A stretch of DNA of 32,945 nucleotides from Magnetococcales bacterium WMHbinv6. GTDB lineage: Bacteria > Pseudomonadota > Magnetococcia > Magnetococcales > Magnetaquicoccaceae. A model generated the notes under the pieces. It was not told the origin of the DNA. It made no database searches and worked only from the letters and a program-made list of their open reading frames with translations. Position numbers and translations under genes: made by a program. The stretch is taken from the NCBI GenBank assembly GCA_002753135.1, contig PDZV01000040.1:1-32945 (forward strand), in the 5' to 3' direction. Of the stretch, positions 16,482 through 24,493 are shown in pieces. Within the stretch, counting starts at the first letter, position 1, and every line of letters starts with the position of its first letter.

Positions 16482-16667
16482 TTGATCGCCACCACCACCC
16501 ACCCCACCAACATGACCGCCGACGAACGCCTGAACGAAGTCGCCGCCATCATCGCCACCGGCCTCCGCCGCCTCGGAGAAAAACAAAAAACGGAGAATAT
16601 TCCAGTTGATAACTCGCCAACCAAATGCCCTTATGGTCGAAAAACACCTAAAGGAGAAAGGCGATGA
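16482..16667 (+). CDS. Small protein of the DUF2924/recombinase cassette
   Basis: This 61-residue protein contains MTADERLNEVAAIIATGLRRL, a short helical motif I associate with the small ORF that regularly precedes DUF2924 and serine-recombinase genes in alphaproteobacterial elements. A TTG start at 16482 has AGGAG eight bases upstream. An ATG at 16512 has no ribosome site but would start exactly at the conserved motif. The stop overlaps the DUF2924 start by four bases. Its function is unknown. Confidence 0.75.
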   Translation: MIATTTHPTNMTADERLNEVAAIIATGLRRLGEKQKTENIPVDNSPTKCPYGRKTPKGERR

Positions 16668-17107
16668 AAATCGGAGTGATCAAACAAGTGGCGGCCTTGC
16701 AAAGCATGACAGCCGCCGAGTTGAGAAATGCCTGGAAGACCTACTTTGACACAGAGCCACCCCTCTTCAACCGAACATTCTTGATGAACCGGCTGGCCTA
16801 CCGGATACAGGATCTGGCCCTGGGCGGACTGTCAGCACAAACGGAAAAGAAAATGATGCGGATGGAGGTCGAGGAGGATGCGCCACCGGAAAAACACAAG
16901 GCACCAGAAGGACGATTCCTGGCCGGCACCAAACTGGTGCGGGAGTGGAAGGGGACACAACACAGCTGCGTGGTACTGGCCGATGGCGGGTTCGAGTATC
17001 AGGGACGGCGGTTCCGGAGTTTGTCGGCGGTGGCCAATGCCATTACCGGCACAAAGTGGAACGGGCTGGTGTTCTTTAACCTGAAAAAACAAGGAGAAAA
17101 AGCGTGA
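16664..17107 (+). CDS. DUF2924 family protein
   Basis: This 147-residue protein has an N-terminal helical part (LQSMTAAELRNAWKTYFDTE and FLMNRLAYRIQDLALGG). Its C-terminal part is strand-rich and DNA-binding-like: GTKLVREWKGTQHSCVVLAD, then YQGRRFRSLSAVANAITGTKWNG. The second part matches the DUF2924 pattern. Members sit directly upstream of serine recombinases in phages and integrative elements and may aid recombination. AAAGGAG precedes the ATG. The stop overlaps the recombinase GTG by four bases. Confidence 0.9.
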   Translation: MKIGVIKQVAALQSMTAAELRNAWKTYFDTEPPLFNRTFLMNRLAYRIQDLALGGLSAQTEKKMMRMEVEEDAPPEKHKAPEGRFLAGTKLVREWKGTQHSCVVLADGGFEYQGRRFRSLSAVANAITGTKWNGLVFFNLKKQGEKA

Positions 17108-18414
17108 CAAAACAAACAATAACCTTTAAAACACGCTGCGCCATCTACACCCGAAAGTCCACCGAAGAGGGTTTGGAGATGGACTTCAATTCATTGGATG
17201 CGCAACGGGAAGCCTGTGAATCCTACATCGCCAGCCAAAAGGCCGAGGGATGGCTCCTGGTGGCCGATCGCTACGACGACGGCGGATTCTCCGGCGGCAA
17301 CCTGGAACGGCCTGCCCTGAAACGTCTCCTGAAAGACATTGAGGCCGGCAAGATCAACCTGGTCGTGATGTATAAAATCGACCGCCTTACCCGCTCACTG
17401 ATGGATTTCGCCAAGCTGGTGGAGGTGTTCGAGAAACACAACGTCACCTTCGCCAGCGTCACCCAGTCGTTCAACACTACCACTTCCATGGGACGGCTCA
17501 CCCTGAACATGCTCCTCTCCTTCGCGCAGTATGAACGCGAGATTTCAGCCGAACGCATCAGAGACAAAGTCGCTGCGTCCAAAAAGAAAGGCATGTGGAT
17601 GGGTGGACACCCCCCTTTCGGATATGACGTCCGAGACCGCAAACTGGTGATCAATGAATCCGAAGCCGAAACAGTACGCTGGCTCTTCCAACGGTTCATG
17701 GAATGCCGGTCTGCCACCCAGATGGTCAGAGAACTGACCGAAAAAGGTGTGCATGGAAAACGCGGTAACCCCCTGGACAAACCATCGGTCTATCGGTTGC
17801 TCAAAAACCACCTGTTCATCGGCAAGGTCGCATTTCAGGGCAAGGTGTACGAGGGTGAGCATGATGGTATCGTCGATCCAGCCCTCTGGGAACAGGTCAA
17901 CGCCATCATGGCATCAAACAACTTTTATCAACCAGAGCGATCCCGCGCACAAACCACGTCATTGCTCATGGGCATCATCCGCTGCCAGCACTGCAACATG
18001 GCCATGTCGCCAACCTTCTCTTGCAAGGCAGGGAAACGATACCACTACTACATCTGCAAGGGAGCAGAAAATCGCGGACGCGAAACCTGCCCACTGCGCA
18101 CCGTCCCTGCCGGTGAGATTGAGGCGGTGGCAATCAACCAAGTCCGCACCATGTTGCAGTCCCCAGAGCTGGTGGTCAAGACCTGGCGCGCCAGCGATGG
18201 CATCAGCGAACGGGATGTGACTGAGGCCCTGCGGCGACTGGATCCGGTTTGGGAGGAACTCTTCCCCGTTGAACAGCAACGACTGGTGCAACTGCTCATC
18301 TCCAGGCTGGATGTGGCGCAGGGCGGGGTGAAAGTGCATTTACGCAGTGCAGGGCTGGATACTTTGGCTCACGAGTTGAGCGATCTGTGGAAAAGCAAGG
18401 AGGTGGTAGCATGA
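17104..18414 (+). CDS. Serine recombinase (resolvase/invertase fold with recombinase and zinc-ribbon domains)
   Basis: This 436-residue protein has catalytic Ser19 in AIYTRKSTEEG. The resolvase domain (residues 10-155) contains DRLTRS and the family block AQYEREISAERIRDK. A recombinase domain (about residues 160-275; PPFGYD...) follows, then a zinc ribbon (C-x2-C in CQHCNMAM, then CKGAENRGRETC). It cuts and rejoins DNA via a phosphoserine link, normally for integration and excision. A GTG start overlaps the DUF2924 stop, and AGGAG lies upstream. It is shorter than typical large serine integrases (450-600 residues), with only a short tail after the ribbon. Confidence 0.95.
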   Translation: MTKQTITFKTRCAIYTRKSTEEGLEMDFNSLDAQREACESYIASQKAEGWLLVADRYDDGGFSGGNLERPALKRLLKDIEAGKINLVVMYKIDRLTRSLMDFAKLVEVFEKHNVTFASVTQSFNTTTSMGRLTLNMLLSFAQYEREISAERIRDKVAASKKKGMWMGGHPPFGYDVRDRKLVINESEAETVRWLFQRFMECRSATQMVRELTEKGVHGKRGNPLDKPSVYRLLKNHLFIGKVAFQGKVYEGEHDGIVDPALWEQVNAIMASNNFYQPERSRAQTTSLLMGIIRCQHCNMAMSPTFSCKAGKRYHYYICKGAENRGRETCPLRTVPAGEIEAVAINQVRTMLQSPELVVKTWRASDGISERDVTEALRRLDPVWEELFPVEQQRLVQLLISRLDVAQGGVKVHLRSAGLDTLAHELSDLWKSKEVVA

Positions 18415-18821
18415 AGGCAGAATTGAGCGCAGACGGCAGCACAATCATCGTCAGCATCCCCATGCAATTTCGGCGACGGGGTGGCCGCACGACGATCATC
18501 GCACCAGAGGGACTGGACATGCCAGCACCAAAGACGACCCGTGACGACAGTCTGGCAAGGTTGGTGGTCAAGGCCCATCGCTGGTTGCGCCTGATTGAGT
18601 CGGGCAAATTTGCATCCATCAAGGAACTGGCCGATCGGGAGAATCTCGATGACTCTTATGTGGCCAGGATACTGCGCCTTACCCTGCTCGCCCCGGACAT
18701 CGTAGAGGCCATTTTGGACAACAAACAGCCGAATGTACTGACGGTGCGGGAGTTGATGCGGCCGTTCCCGGTGCTGTGGACAGAACAGCGCGAGCAGTGG
18801 GGGATGGCAAAGTCGGCCTGA
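18411..18821 (+). CDS. Recombinase-linked HTH protein, copy 1 (intact)
   Basis: This 136-residue protein has a short N-terminal strand region (TIIVSIPMQFRRRGGRTTII) and a helix-turn-helix-like core (FASIKELADRENLDDSYVAR, then ILRLTLLAPDIVEAIL). A conserved tail follows (LTVRELMRPFPVLWTEQREQ). AAGGAGG precedes the ATG, which overlaps the recombinase stop (ATGA). Proteins of this type follow serine recombinases in alphaproteobacterial phages and islands, suggesting a directionality or DNA-binding accessory. The function is inferred from linkage. Confidence 0.82.
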   Translation: MKAELSADGSTIIVSIPMQFRRRGGRTTIIAPEGLDMPAPKTTRDDSLARLVVKAHRWLRLIESGKFASIKELADRENLDDSYVARILRLTLLAPDIVEAILDNKQPNVLTVRELMRPFPVLWTEQREQWGMAKSA

Positions 18822-18838
18822 CCCGACGGCGGTTGCGT

Positions 18839-19184
18839 ATGGATACAAATAGCATCCTCATGCCGGACAGCATTGATCTGCCGTCGGCGCCAGCCAAGGA
18901 TGAGACGTTGGCAAAATTGGTGACAAAATCACACATCTGTCTCCGGCAGCTTGAAAGTGGTAGAGTGGCCACCATCTCCGAACTGGCCGAGCGGGAGAAA
19001 TTTGACAACTCTTACGTCGCCAAGGTGATGCGGTTGACGCTGCTGGCTCCGGATATCGTGGAGATGATACTGGACGGGATAACAACCGAAAGCGATGACT
19101 TGGCGGGAGTTGGCGAAGGGGTTTCCGGTGGAGTGGATGGAGCAACGGCGGTTGTGGAGTATCCGGCAACCAACTGATAAATAA
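18839..19184 (+). pseudogene. Recombinase-linked HTH protein, copy 2, frameshifted
   Basis: The first frame (from 18839) closely matches copy 1 through ISELAEREKFDNSYVAKVMR and LTLLAPDIVEMIL, then loses similarity after residue 85. Shifting by one base at about 19091-19095 restores it: MTWRELAKGFPVEWMEQRRL aligns with LTVRELMRPFPVLWTEQREQ, ending at TAA 19182-19184. With that one-base correction the spacing matches copy 1 exactly. Unshifted, the frame reads on to 19177 as an unrelated Gly/Val-rich tail. It lacks copy 1's N-terminal strand region and a clear ribosome site. It may be a decaying duplicate or a sequencing error. Confidence 0.72.
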
Positions 19185-19536: not shown

Positions 19537-22500
19537 TCAATTCCAGTTGGACCAAGACAGTTTCCCCTCAGCGATCCGTCCTACTACGGTCTTCGTCGCG
19601 AGTTCATAAACCGCGCCAACTTGGTGCTTCCGCAACCCCATAAAAGTTTTTACCTCAGCAATCAGGGCCAGATGTTTTCCCGTCGGGGAAAGAACGGCAG
19701 CCTCCACACGGCATTTGCCGCGATTCAAAACTGCTGCCACTTGGGTTGCGGCGCTTTCCCATAATGGGGTTTCATCTGCCGTTCGCCGGATGCCGTCCAA
19801 CAACTCGGCCAATGGTTTGAGGCGTGGCGTTCCCTCAGCAGCAAACTGAAAATGAATGGGCAAGCGCGTCAGGGCGCAGTCACGCATATCATTCGGGTGC
19901 GCCTTGAGGTCACTCCAGAAACAGGTCCGCAATTCAACCGGCGCGCAATACTTCCCAGTAGATGACCTCGTGGCAACGCTTTCAAGAATGCGTACCTGGG
20001 AGACGCTGCTGGTGACGAGAAGCTGCTTCAAAACATGTTTGCCCGTTGCGGCGCAACCCTCCAATTCTCCCAGCAGGACGTGTTTGCCGCTGACTTCGCA
20101 ATGCCGGAGCACACCAAACCGAACCCGCTTTCCCGTGACCTCGCATTGCTCGGATTCCGCGAGGGCAATTGGCTGATGAGTTTCGTGGCATATAACGAAT
20201 TCCGCCTTGTGTCCCGATCTCCCGGAAACAGCGGAGCGCACATGTTCATCGATGCGGTACGGCTGCCCAGAAATCTCGCTGACAGCGGATTCGACATGGA
20301 GCAACATGGCGCCGGTGAACATGCAGCGGACAAACTGGTCTGGTTCAGCACGCTTGCCGCTAACCGTGGAGGTCTTGAGAAGGGAGGAGGCAATCAACTT
20401 CCCGGTGGCCGCCGACGTCTCAACCTCATCTTTCAGCACGAGCTTGCCGCTGAGTGCGCAAACTACAGCAAATATCGGCAGCGCGGGGCGCCCACTTACT
20501 CCAGATTTCACAAGCAGATGGCGAAGCGCGTAGGCACCGGATAACTCACACCTCGTTAAGCATGACGCGGGGACCGTTCGGGCGGACAGCGTGCAAAACC
20601 CCATGTCCTGCGCATGAGACACTTTTTTGTTGTGAGGAATAACCCCGACAATACTCTCGTAGATGTCATCTGTGTCAAACGCATATCGCGCTCGCATAAT
20701 GATCTCGCGGTATGAATGTCCGGTTAGCCCGACCAGCGTCATGGCCAAACGAGGTGTGAATTCGTCAAACAGCTTTTTTCGTTTGCGCTCGTCTTTTCCT
20801 GCACCCCTAACCTCTTGCTCACGCCGCTCCAGGTAGAAGCGGGAAAACTCCGCTATGGCATCGTCCTGACCTGCGGCAACCTTCAATCTGTCGGGGTCGA
20901 GGCCCATGATTGCGGGGTCTTCGACGGTTTTCGGCAACGGGGCCAGACCGGGCCGACCAAGCACCTTTTTGTGGTCATGCGAGCTGCAAGGCACCTCCAC
21001 AAGGCGCTCGTAGCTGTCGTGCGCAACGGTCGCCCGCACACGCAGGATGGCATTGCCGCCGAAGTACCGCTTCACGTCAGTAATTTCGATTGCTGTTTGC
21101 CGCCCGCCAAAACGCGCAACCCATTCCCTCGCAATGGTCTCTGCCGTCCTGGCTGGTTCATCATCAAGATCTCCAACTTCGTGGATGCCGGTTGCCGTGA
21201 CACGGTCTATGAGCCTTTGGAATGCAGCTGATCCAGGAGCATAGAGGATACTCTTAATGGAGGTATTCGGAGTGTCTTCAAAACGAACATGTTCGCGGCG
21301 GCCGTATTCCTCGGCAAGATAAAGACTGTCCGGCTTTGGACGTAGCGTAACACCCAGCATCCTCAATGCGGCAATAGCGAAGTCCTTCGCATCCATTGAG
21401 CGTGTGACGTCGGGCAGGCTTGGCGTGCGAGGCCCGACATAGGAGGCCCCATCCATGTTGCCGAGCATAGCATCGATGTTCGCTTGCTCTCGTTCGAGTT
21501 CTTCCTTAGCTTCTGCAATGTTTTGTTCTTGGATGCGTGTTTCTTTCTCAACGTCCTTTCCGGCCAGAGCCGCCAGGACCAACGAAAGGATACGGTCTTC
21601 AAAGCTTGTTGTGACGTCTCCATCGCTATCACCAATGTCCGAACCTTGCAGGAGAGCTTCTATATCGCCGATCGCATGGGAGGCCATCTGGAGCTTTTCC
21701 ATCAGGCGGCCGACAATGTATTCCTCGAAAGTGCCGCGCAGCATAACGTTGAAGATGCTGACATTGGCGTAGTCGGAGGCAAGCCGCTGGATACGCCCGA
21801 TCCGCTGCTCCACGATCATGGGGTTCCACGGCAGATCATAATTGACAAGGACGTTGGCAACCTGAAGATTCACACCCTCGGAACCGGCTTCGGTTGACAC
21901 GATCACCCGGTATCCGGGAGGATTCTGGCGGAAACGGGCTACGGTCTCCTGATTGCGAGCGCCTGAATCGCCGTTAATGATGCCAACTTTCAATCCGTGC
22001 GCATCAAGAAATGCTTGGATTGTGGTCTGAGTCTCCCGACGGCCTGTGAACACCACGAGCCGCCAACTATCAGGTTTTTCCTTTTTAAGCTGTTCGATGA
22101 GACGACCAAGGCCGTGGAGTTTGGCACTGGGGGGCATTTTACTCACGATGTCCTTTACCGTCGCCGCCAACTCCTGGGGAACAGTTCTGTTTCTCGCCAT
22201 GTTAACAAGTTGCGCCATGAGCGCTTCCGGGCTGCTTGTGAGGGCCTGAAGAATGGAAATCTGCGCGAGCCTATTCAGCTTCTGGATGGGCTTGGCGATG
22301 GTTTCTATCAGTTTCAGCTCAGAGGGCGTCGGATCGACATTGTGCATCTGTACGACCCGGTCAGGGAAATAGAGCTTGGCGTCCCCTCGACGCACGCGCG
22401 ACATGTACCCATAAACGATGGACCGGAATTCGTCCTGGGCTTCGGTCTTCAACTGGCGCGCCTGATTCTTTCTGTCCGCGATAAATCGGTGAAAATACAT

Positions 22501-23262
22501 ACCCTCGGATCCGAAGGGGTTTTCGTGACCACGTGCGACGGCAAGCAAATCAACGAGCGAATAGATGTCCCACAAGCGGTTCTGAATGGGTGTCGCGGTC
22601 AACATCAGGACAAAACGGAACCGGCGATCTTCAAGTGCCTTTCGGAAACGTTTCGCCACCTGCGGCGTTGCTTGGACGCCGTAGAGATTGCGGAGTTTGT
22701 GAGCCTCATCAAGAATCAGCATCTGAAAACGATCATCGGGGATATCGTCGAGGTATAGCCGAGCCGAATTGTAGGTCGTAATAACGGCTCCTGCCTCATC
22801 GTGATCCGCAGTGATGAGTGCTTTGCCTGTAGCTACCTCCGCCGGAAAATCAAACTTCGTCTCCAGTTCTTCTTTCCATTGCGGGCCGAGCAGCTTTGGC
22901 GCCACGATAAGGACTTTCGATAAGCGCGAGCGGGAGAGGAGTTCGCTGATAATGAGGCCTGCGCTAATCGTTTTGCCAAGACCAACGTCGTCGGCAAGTA
23001 AGGTCACGGGTAGACGTCGGCAAAATGTTATGAGGTTCGAGACTTGGTGATGAAAAGGCGTTAGATGATCGCGCCAGCGCTGTGCGGATTTGAAGTCATC
23101 CGAGCTTTCGATCACGATGGGATCAGTCAATGCCCATTCGAGTCCCGCACGGTAAACCGCAAATTCTTCCGACGAGCGTTTGCGAGTAAGTATCTTTGAA
23201 CGGAACTCGATGGCCGTGTCGGCGCCTAAATCTGGCTGCGTTTGACGCTGACCCATGTTCAT
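19537..23262 (-). CDS. SNF2-family helicase with C-terminal repeat domain
   Basis: This 1241-residue protein has SNF2 motif I DDVGLGKTISAG (GKT at about residues 96-98), II LILDEAHKLRN (about 185-188), III LMLTATPIQN and VI EQRIGRIQRLAS, so it should translocate on double-stranded DNA. A coiled coil (KETRIQEQNIAEAKEELERE) and a mixed domain follow. Residues 890-1140 contain about 16 copies of a 13-17-residue repeat with consensus C-x-(V/L)-(S/T)-G-(K/R)-x-(V/L)-L. It ends in a small domain with TGKHLALIAEVKTFMGL. The ATG at 23262 has AGGTG nine bases upstream; in-frame GTG 23334 (AGGAG six bases upstream) or TTG 23337 are alternatives. It stands alone in its transcription unit. Confidence 0.92.
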   Translation of the reverse strand: MNMGQRQTQPDLGADTAIEFRSKILTRKRSSEEFAVYRAGLEWALTDPIVIESSDDFKSAQRWRDHLTPFHHQVSNLITFCRRLPVTLLADDVGLGKTISAGLIISELLSRSRLSKVLIVAPKLLGPQWKEELETKFDFPAEVATGKALITADHDEAGAVITTYNSARLYLDDIPDDRFQMLILDEAHKLRNLYGVQATPQVAKRFRKALEDRRFRFVLMLTATPIQNRLWDIYSLVDLLAVARGHENPFGSEGMYFHRFIADRKNQARQLKTEAQDEFRSIVYGYMSRVRRGDAKLYFPDRVVQMHNVDPTPSELKLIETIAKPIQKLNRLAQISILQALTSSPEALMAQLVNMARNRTVPQELAATVKDIVSKMPPSAKLHGLGRLIEQLKKEKPDSWRLVVFTGRRETQTTIQAFLDAHGLKVGIINGDSGARNQETVARFRQNPPGYRVIVSTEAGSEGVNLQVANVLVNYDLPWNPMIVEQRIGRIQRLASDYANVSIFNVMLRGTFEEYIVGRLMEKLQMASHAIGDIEALLQGSDIGDSDGDVTTSFEDRILSLVLAALAGKDVEKETRIQEQNIAEAKEELEREQANIDAMLGNMDGASYVGPRTPSLPDVTRSMDAKDFAIAALRMLGVTLRPKPDSLYLAEEYGRREHVRFEDTPNTSIKSILYAPGSAAFQRLIDRVTATGIHEVGDLDDEPARTAETIAREWVARFGGRQTAIEITDVKRYFGGNAILRVRATVAHDSYERLVEVPCSSHDHKKVLGRPGLAPLPKTVEDPAIMGLDPDRLKVAAGQDDAIAEFSRFYLERREQEVRGAGKDERKRKKLFDEFTPRLAMTLVGLTGHSYREIIMRARYAFDTDDIYESIVGVIPHNKKVSHAQDMGFCTLSARTVPASCLTRCELSGAYALRHLLVKSGVSGRPALPIFAVVCALSGKLVLKDEVETSAATGKLIASSLLKTSTVSGKRAEPDQFVRCMFTGAMLLHVESAVSEISGQPYRIDEHVRSAVSGRSGHKAEFVICHETHQPIALAESEQCEVTGKRVRFGVLRHCEVSGKHVLLGELEGCAATGKHVLKQLLVTSSVSQVRILESVATRSSTGKYCAPVELRTCFWSDLKAHPNDMRDCALTRLPIHFQFAAEGTPRLKPLAELLDGIRRTADETPLWESAATQVAAVLNRGKCRVEAAVLSPTGKHLALIAEVKTFMGLRKHQVGAVYELATKTVVGRIAEGKLSWSNWN
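19845..20600 (-). repeat. Coding repeats in the SNF2 helicase C-terminus
   Basis: This segment encodes about 16 degenerate repeats of 13-17 residues. Clear examples are CALSGKLVLKDEVETS, CEVTGKRVRFGVLRH, CEVSGKHVLLGELEG and CAATGKHVLKQLLVTS. The Cys is kept in about half the units and the (S/T)-G pair in most. DNA identity between units is low, so the array is old. Confidence 0.85.
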
Positions 23263-23337: not shown

Positions 23338-24362
23338 CCGCTCCTACACCAACATGCTGTCTGCAGTGTTCATAACACAACACCGCGCAACCAATCAACG
23401 CACAACCTCCAGAGACTCCTGGCTTGGTTGAAACTTGAACAGTCTGCGACAAAAAGGCCATAGCCACCCCACTTCGATTGCCGCACAACCGCGCCGTGTG
23501 TCGCATTCCTGCCGCACTGCGCAGGACAGGTTCCGCTGGCCAGCAAAAGGCGAACACGTTGCCACTGAACGCAGACACCGCGCAACCACTCGGAGGCCAT
23601 TTGCACCCGTCCGCAAGCCTGCTGGCAAGAAAATCAGACGGAACAGGCCAATGTAAAAGGAGAATCCGCTTTGATTGCACCAAGATCGGAACATTGTGCG
23701 CCGCCGTTTCCGACTCTCCATCTTGCCACCCAACAAGCCGCCAGTCGAACATTCTGGACGCGAGTTGAACTCCCGCCAGTCAAAAGTGCCAACCAATGCG
23801 CGTATCAAACGAGTCCAACATCAGTAGCAACGCGGTGACCGCAAGAGCATCATCATGTCTGAAGGCGTTGATCTGTCGTCGGTGCCACTCATACACCCAT
23901 CGGCACCCCCTTCCGCACCACTGCGCCCCTGTCGCCCACCCGATACAGCCCCGCGGGAATGGCCCACCTCCGGCCAAAAGGCGCACACGCGACGACTGTG
24001 CGCAGAGGCGACGCACCCATCTTGACTCGCTACAGAAGAGCCAACGTGTCGATTATATGTGAAAATTTTTCCATCGGCACGGAGTTTCGGACACGCTTGC
24101 AAAAGTTTGCACTTTCATTTGCCGAGCACACTTTTTATCGAACCCTCGATCCATCAGCAAACGCTATTAAACCATGAAATATATCAGGAAAAGCGTGTCT
24201 CTTTTTCAGGGACACGGCAGGGGTGTGTCCACAGCCTTTGGAGAATATCGGCATGGAGAAGGAGAAAATGGCCGATTTCGACCCTCGTTGTGTCCACAGG
24301 GGAGCAAATGCGTTGTCGAACCGTGGTTGCTAACCATTGAAAATATTGGAGTTTTTAGACAC
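23338..24362. other. About 1 kb with no supportable gene
   Basis: Open frames here are short, overlap one another and have no ribosome sites or recognisable motifs. A few imperfect repeats are visible (for example ACCGCGCAACCA near 23381 and 23576, and similar AAAAGGCG-(A/C)ACACG stretches near 23545 and 23977). A short hairpin with an 8-bp stem lies near 24194-24217, and TGTGTCCACAG occurs twice (near 24225 and 24289). It could be a decayed coding region between the island and the core chromosome. Confidence 0.5.
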
Positions 24363-24418: not shown

Positions 24419-24493
24419 TGGTGGGCGATACAAGGTTCGAACTTGTGGCCCCTACCGTGTCAAGGTAGTGCTCTCCCGCTGAGCTAACCGCCC
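24419..24493 (-). tRNA. tRNA-Val (anticodon GAC)
   Basis: This is a full 75-base cloverleaf with encoded CCA. The acceptor stem GGGCGGT pairs with ATCGCCC (one G-U). The D-arm is TAGCTCAGCGGGAGAGCA, the anticodon stem CTACC/GGTAG closes loop TTGACAC (anticodon GAC), and the T-arm loop is GTTCGAAC. It reads GUC and GUU valine codons. Its own promoter, leader and terminator flank it. tRNA 3' ends are frequent island attachment sites, but no second copy of this 3' end is visible in the window. Confidence 0.97.

Follow-up and report, generated by a model that had tools for sequence, protein, structure and literature searches.

The window analyzed here, the whole 32,945-nucleotide stretch of Magnetococcales bacterium WMHbinv6, encodes a helicase of the SNF2 group that ends in an array of 17 short tandem repeats, predicted to fold into a rigid solenoid of β-hairpins. 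The reading that we favor, at about even confidence, is that of an accessory double-stranded-DNA translocase, probably directed against invaders, with a metal-free docking arm derived from zinc knuckles; the structure of this arm is predicted, while we infer its origin and its function. Within the literature searched, on SNF2 helicases in defence, on DUF2779 and on solenoids of tandem knuckles, this protein was found nowhere described.

The SNF2 motor and its nearest named families

The gene and the two motor lobes are placed as follows.

19537..23262 (-), SNF2/RapA-type helicase with a C-terminal solenoid, 1241 aa counted from ATG 23262
22276..23004 (-), SNF2 N-terminal motor lobe, Pfam PF00176 (Walker A DDVGLGKT, DEAH box)
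21781..22098 (-), Helicase_C motor lobe, Pfam PF00271

The reading frame on the reverse strand is open to 19537 from either TTG 23337 or ATG 23262. Because the homologues begin at approximately residue 38 (near 23226), the exact start is uncertain and may be TTG 23337, ATG 23262 or slightly downstream; residues are numbered here from TTG 23337, and subtracting 25 gives the numbering from ATG 23262. Both lobes score well above their Pfam cut-offs (SNF2-rel_dom, E 2.2e-24, 86.5 bits versus 24.9; Helicase_C, E 1.5e-16, 61 bits versus 23.5), and the motifs DDVGLGKT, DEAH, TATP and QRIGRIQR are all present. The gene product is thus an SNF2/Swi2 (SF2) helicase with intact motor motifs. Pfam covers these two lobes and nothing else in the protein.

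The nearest named families are DrmD, DpdE, BrxH and RapA, each of them matched below the curated cut-off where one exists. The best NCBIfam match is DISARM DrmD (NF038317), with which the helicase shares the common SNF2 motor plan, but the match is partial, the array falls outside the matched part, and the DrmD scores (194 bits versus a cut-off of 610, and 166 versus 950) lie below the equivalog cut-off. Among the window proteins scanned, none was named as a DISARM partner, and none as the BREX core proteins BrxC, PglZ or PglX; the BrxH model itself gives a partial match to the helicase. With 117 bits versus a cut-off of 576, the protein is not RapA by the curated threshold either. RapA and BrxHII have been described as sharing a plan of Tudor, Snf2, inactive nuclease fold and alpha+beta domains (PMC12839542), and they resemble the present protein in having further C-terminal regions after the SNF2 motor; however, that plan, as described, includes no C-terminal solenoid of this kind.

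A regular array of 15-residue units

The region behind the motor is occupied by a single repetitive feature.

19834..20595 (-), repeat array, 17 units in tandem of the form [C/S]xx[S/T]G[K/R]x(V)L..(D/E)(L)xx, modeled as a hairpin solenoid with knuckle-like turns

The 17 units span residues 915-1168, with 15 residues in each of u1-u14, 14 in u15 and 15 in both u16 and u17. Within 256 residues, the pattern [CS]xx[ST][GSAR][KRHQ] matches 11 times, whereas 5000 shuffles give 0.38 matches on average and 4 at most, and the self-similarity of the array (BLOSUM), sharpest at lags 15, 45 and 30, exceeds that of every shuffle. The 826 units compared across the family yield the consensus C/S1-x2-V/L/I3-S/T4-G5-K/R6-x7-V/A8-L9-x10-D/S11-E12-L13-x-x. 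Cys fills position 1 in 52% of these units and Ser in 46%, a choice that is fixed for each orthologous unit and almost never swapped (mean entropy 0.08 bit). Ser or Thr fills position 4 in 97-99% of units, and Lys or Arg fills position 6 in 60%, the latter giving a Lys/Arg-rich row just past each knuckle; the net charge of the array is only +6. Majority identity across the family reaches 65% in the array and 80% in the helicase, and this conservation rules out a rapidly diversifying, hypervariable surface. It also argues for a common target over a fast-changing invader protein.

The first-pass annotation, made from the letters alone, had described an SNF2 helicase ending in short repeats, which agrees with the Pfam lobes and the array reported here. 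The array is real and far above the shuffles; the count of about 16 repeats becomes 17, and the unit length of 13-17 residues gives way to a register in which 16 units have exactly 15 residues and one has 14. Its mention of one Cys in many units is half right. Its view that the array is no recognized domain was borne out, since the Pfam, NCBIfam and PADLOC models are all blank over this region. A search of the array sequence against the PDB gave nothing convincing, the best hit being a pentapeptide-repeat protein (E 0.0014) and probably one of composition, and a tblastn comparison of two arrays with phage sequences returned zero matches.

Predicted fold and likeness to zinc knuckles

AlphaFold2 models of the array, which take no account of metal, are confident. 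For the array alone (20 sequences) a regular solenoid of β-hairpins was obtained with a pLDDT of 94.2 and a pTM of 0.68, while the array with the following cap (32 sequences) reached a pLDDT of 89.9.

19540..19833 (-), C-terminal cap from approximately residue 1169, two helices and a four-strand sheet in the AlphaFold2 model

In each modeled unit, residues 1-5 form a loop, 6-8 a strand, 10-12 one helical turn and 13-15 a second strand, and the loop connects two strands in the manner of a zinc knuckle. A reading of the array as a pentapeptide or left-handed β-helix was rejected, as each modeled unit is a hairpin with a helical turn.

As the cap dominated the matches of the whole C-terminal model, the array was refolded and searched by itself. 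Against the PDB it retrieved mostly zinc folds (FYVE, LIM, PHD, double PHD and RBR), all of them weakly, with a best Z of 4.8 and no match at a Foldseek E of 0.001 or below. The treble-clef and cross-brace domains FYVE, LIM and PHD dominate these structural matches and have a hairpin-knuckle architecture like the one predicted for the array; they differ from the array, which has Ser/Thr as the second knuckle ligand and 17 units in one rod, and no similarity to them exceeds Z 4.8. Among viral models, fold matches with probability 1.00 were found to phage proteins, some named LIM or amidoligase. One of them, the uncharacterized protein gp08 of Klebsiella phage KpV48 (L123, 3323-5302), carries C-terminal CCCCGE...CDDC followed by CTWSD...C, a mixture of knuckle and degenerate turns that resembles the array; this protein, however, matches over a short stretch, lacks a helicase and has 11% identity in the structural alignment.

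A distant relative with 31% identity (L063) keeps the exact 15-residue register from residue ~1056 to 1535, and it retains true knuckle units (CPVCN, CDVCA and CSVCQ), immediately preceded by CTQCARLVCSTH and CSACSKQLCEDH. Since these CxxC units share the register of the array, Ser/Thr at position 4 occupies the place of the second CxxC Cys. By its sequence register, therefore, the [C/S]-x-x-[S/T]-G-[K/R] unit takes the position of a CxxC(G) zinc knuckle, and the array would descend from tandem zinc knuckles that lost their metal, or would at least share their geometry. A precedent is found in the RING-like domain of alpha-COP, where the treble-clef fold was kept after loss of the zinc ligands (PMC4678705); that case differs in being a single domain of a eukaryotic coat protein, while the array is tandem.

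Possible metal sites at the ends of the array

Potential metal ligands are conserved at both ends of the array.

20548..20595 (-), conserved Cys cluster at the array start, C915, C926 and C930, 94-100% conserved
19876..19947 (-), array end, candidate for a metal site that was kept, C1131, C1139, H1147 and C1154, invariant in 32 sequences

These two Cys/His clusters may be metal sites, as judged from their conservation. They could also be taken, together with the many units that begin with Cys (all of u10-u13 among them), as signs of an array that truly binds zinc, with the Cys of successive units sharing a metal. We consider this very unlikely, however, given that the second ligand position is almost always Ser/Thr, that at least three knuckle-position Cys occur together in just 3 of the 758 pairs of neighboring units, and that Cys and Ser columns rarely interchange. 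The four Cys/His ligands per site that define LIM and FYVE domains were not found mid-array. On the prevalence of Ser/Thr at position 4 and the same pair count, zinc in every unit was rejected. Thus, of the two structural proposals in the first-pass annotation, the solenoid agrees with the confident models, while zinc held by neighboring Cys finds no support for the array overall and may occur at its ends.

Distribution of the family and changes in array length

With each species represented by a single genome, the scan recovered 65 loci, about 50 of them with the full architecture and mostly at 49-65% identity. They belong to Alpha-, Beta- and Gammaproteobacteria, Nitrospirota, Acidobacteriota, Planctomycetota, Lentisphaerota and several Patescibacteria, in a scattered distribution that is patchy across many phyla; the array is present in a single genome among the 18 of the taxonomic family, and likewise in one among the 398 phylum genomes sampled. 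On plasmids and viral contigs the full helicase-array architecture was absent and helicase-core relatives only were recovered; the array is likewise absent from helicase-core relatives outside the family. Five copies (L021, L044, L051, L053 and L055) appear broken by frameshift or truncation, which may include assembly errors.

The order u1-u17 is maintained in the relatives and array length shifts by whole units (13, 17, 20, 25 and up to ~90). For instance, u10-u13 are missing from L035 and L045, whose array length L036 shares, a u5-u12-like block is duplicated in L028, L037 and L039 to give 25 units, additional u12-like units are present in L032, and L059 and L057 contain ~48 and ~90 units. 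The last, a planctomycete protein of 2466 aa (L057, 4896-12296), has a strong 90-residue higher-order repeat.

Two loci deserve separate mention. Read with table 11, the Gracilibacteria gene (L038, 375-4070) is interrupted by many stops, which would be expected were TGA a glycine codon there. The helicases of L019 and L020 are near-identical although their contigs are labeled Nitrospira and Nitrosospira, and either a recent transfer or a binning error would account for this.

Genomic setting

On one side of the helicase lies a mobile module and on the other a tRNA gene, with the core ponA-pilMN genes adjoining.

16664..18414 (+), DUF2924 gene and large serine recombinase, mobile module adjoining the helicase
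24419..24493 (-), tRNA-Val(gac)

In the sister genome (G002), the DUF2924-recombinase module recurs at 78% DNA identity and the tRNA-ponA side is also shared; between them it carries an HU-like gene and lacks the helicase, and homology with the window resumes at 24160, right beside the tRNA. The recombinase is multi-copy within the genus, and an alphaproteobacterial locus (L015) has DUF2924, recombinase and helicase in the same order. The helicase would thus be the cargo of a mobile element. Nevertheless, this recombinase cluster is common to 6 loci only, and most relatives are not beside it.

Other parts of the window have features of their own. Two adjacent small ORFs on the forward strand (18387-18821 and 18776-19177) share a helix-turn-helix-like stretch, SYVA...LRLTLLAPDIVE.ILD; both match a single stretch in the sister genome and one is likely a diverged duplicate. 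Between 872 and 11297, on the reverse strand, there are mobile-element-like genes for an N6/N4 DNA methylase, DUF669, AAA_24, a response regulator, a sigma-70 region 4-like protein and two ATPases, one histidine kinase-like and the other SMC/AAA.

The neighborhoods of the relatives were examined over 66 genes, from which the 25 commonest families were listed. A gene with RecB/Cas4-like and DEDD exonuclease domains (TIGR03491, PF13482 (RNase_H_2) or DUF2779) adjoins or lies near the helicase in 13 of the 57 related loci. It may stand to the left or the right of the helicase and point either way, at distances from a few bases to 300 bases and, in L038, ~0.8 kb. The RNase H-like families of this nuclease have been placed among the 3'-5' exonucleases and can be fused with a PD-(D/E)XK-like DUF83 domain (PMC3985635). 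On the tree, where 12 of the 13 nuclease loci could be placed, the nuclease neighbor needs 7 changes. Most loci, the present one included, have no neighboring nuclease, and there is no TIGR03491 protein anywhere in the present genome. In L037 (4260-7727) and L061 (2317-5739) the nuclease is fused with an SF1 (Upf1/IGHMBP2-like) helicase. Other neighbors are SIR2-HerA in L016, a CD-NTase in three Methylobacterium loci, which are near-identical copies, and OLD-like ATPases. By raw counts, defence neighbors occur in a minority of loci.

Proposed function and alternative explanations

By its motor motifs and family matches, the protein would belong to the RapA/DrmD branch of SNF2 and use ATP to translocate along double-stranded DNA. 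Its C-terminus would form a rigid rod of stacked β-hairpins, derived from tandem CxxC knuckles whose ligands changed to Ser/Thr except in the end units, and, in the predicted structure, hydrogen bonding together with a hydrophobic core would hold it in place of zinc. The docking or measuring of nucleic acid or of a partner protein would be the most likely task of such an arm. The helicase would move along or remodel invading DNA, which the neighboring exonuclease, where present, would degrade. A role in anti-invader defence, as the first-pass annotation suggested, is plausible from the gene context, namely the patchiness, the mobile module and the nuclease and defence neighbors in relatives. 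Counting against this explanation are the conservation of the array, its low net charge, the weak likeness to zinc folds, models that leave metal out of account, the lack of a neighboring nuclease in most loci and the minority of loci with defence neighbors. A bolder version is possible but doubtful: that the array is a previously undescribed solenoid class, with knuckles metal-free save at the ends, and forms a recognition arm of adjustable length on an anti-invader translocase that acts as one gene, or at times as helicase plus exonuclease, and that mobile elements have spread over many bacterial phyla.

Two other functions were weighed. The sub-threshold match to RapA and an array that is conserved instead of hypervariable would suit a gene-expression factor, for instance one that recycles RNA polymerase in the manner of RapA, with a solenoid that binds polymerase or RNA and no part in defence. 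This is unlikely, considering that nearly all related genomes lack the gene, that it adjoins a recombinase module and has nuclease neighbors in relatives, and that its copies are patchy over many phyla, five of them apparently broken. The adjacency of DUF2924 and recombinase to the helicase, both here and in the alphaproteobacterium, and the multi-copy recombinase of the genus speak for a fitness or maintenance gene of the mobile element, whose targets could be, for example, the DNA of its own element or competing elements, while the solenoid would dock a protein. We regard this as improbable, since most relatives lie away from that recombinase and the sister element does without the helicase.

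If the favored reading, an accessory translocase with a knuckle-derived arm, is correct, a new repeat-arm type of SNF2 motor would join the accessory, probably defensive, translocases. It would also suggest a route from a zinc-finger repeat to a metal-free solenoid, with relatives spanning the change, and the natural gains and losses of whole units would be ready length variants for probing what the arm measures or binds.
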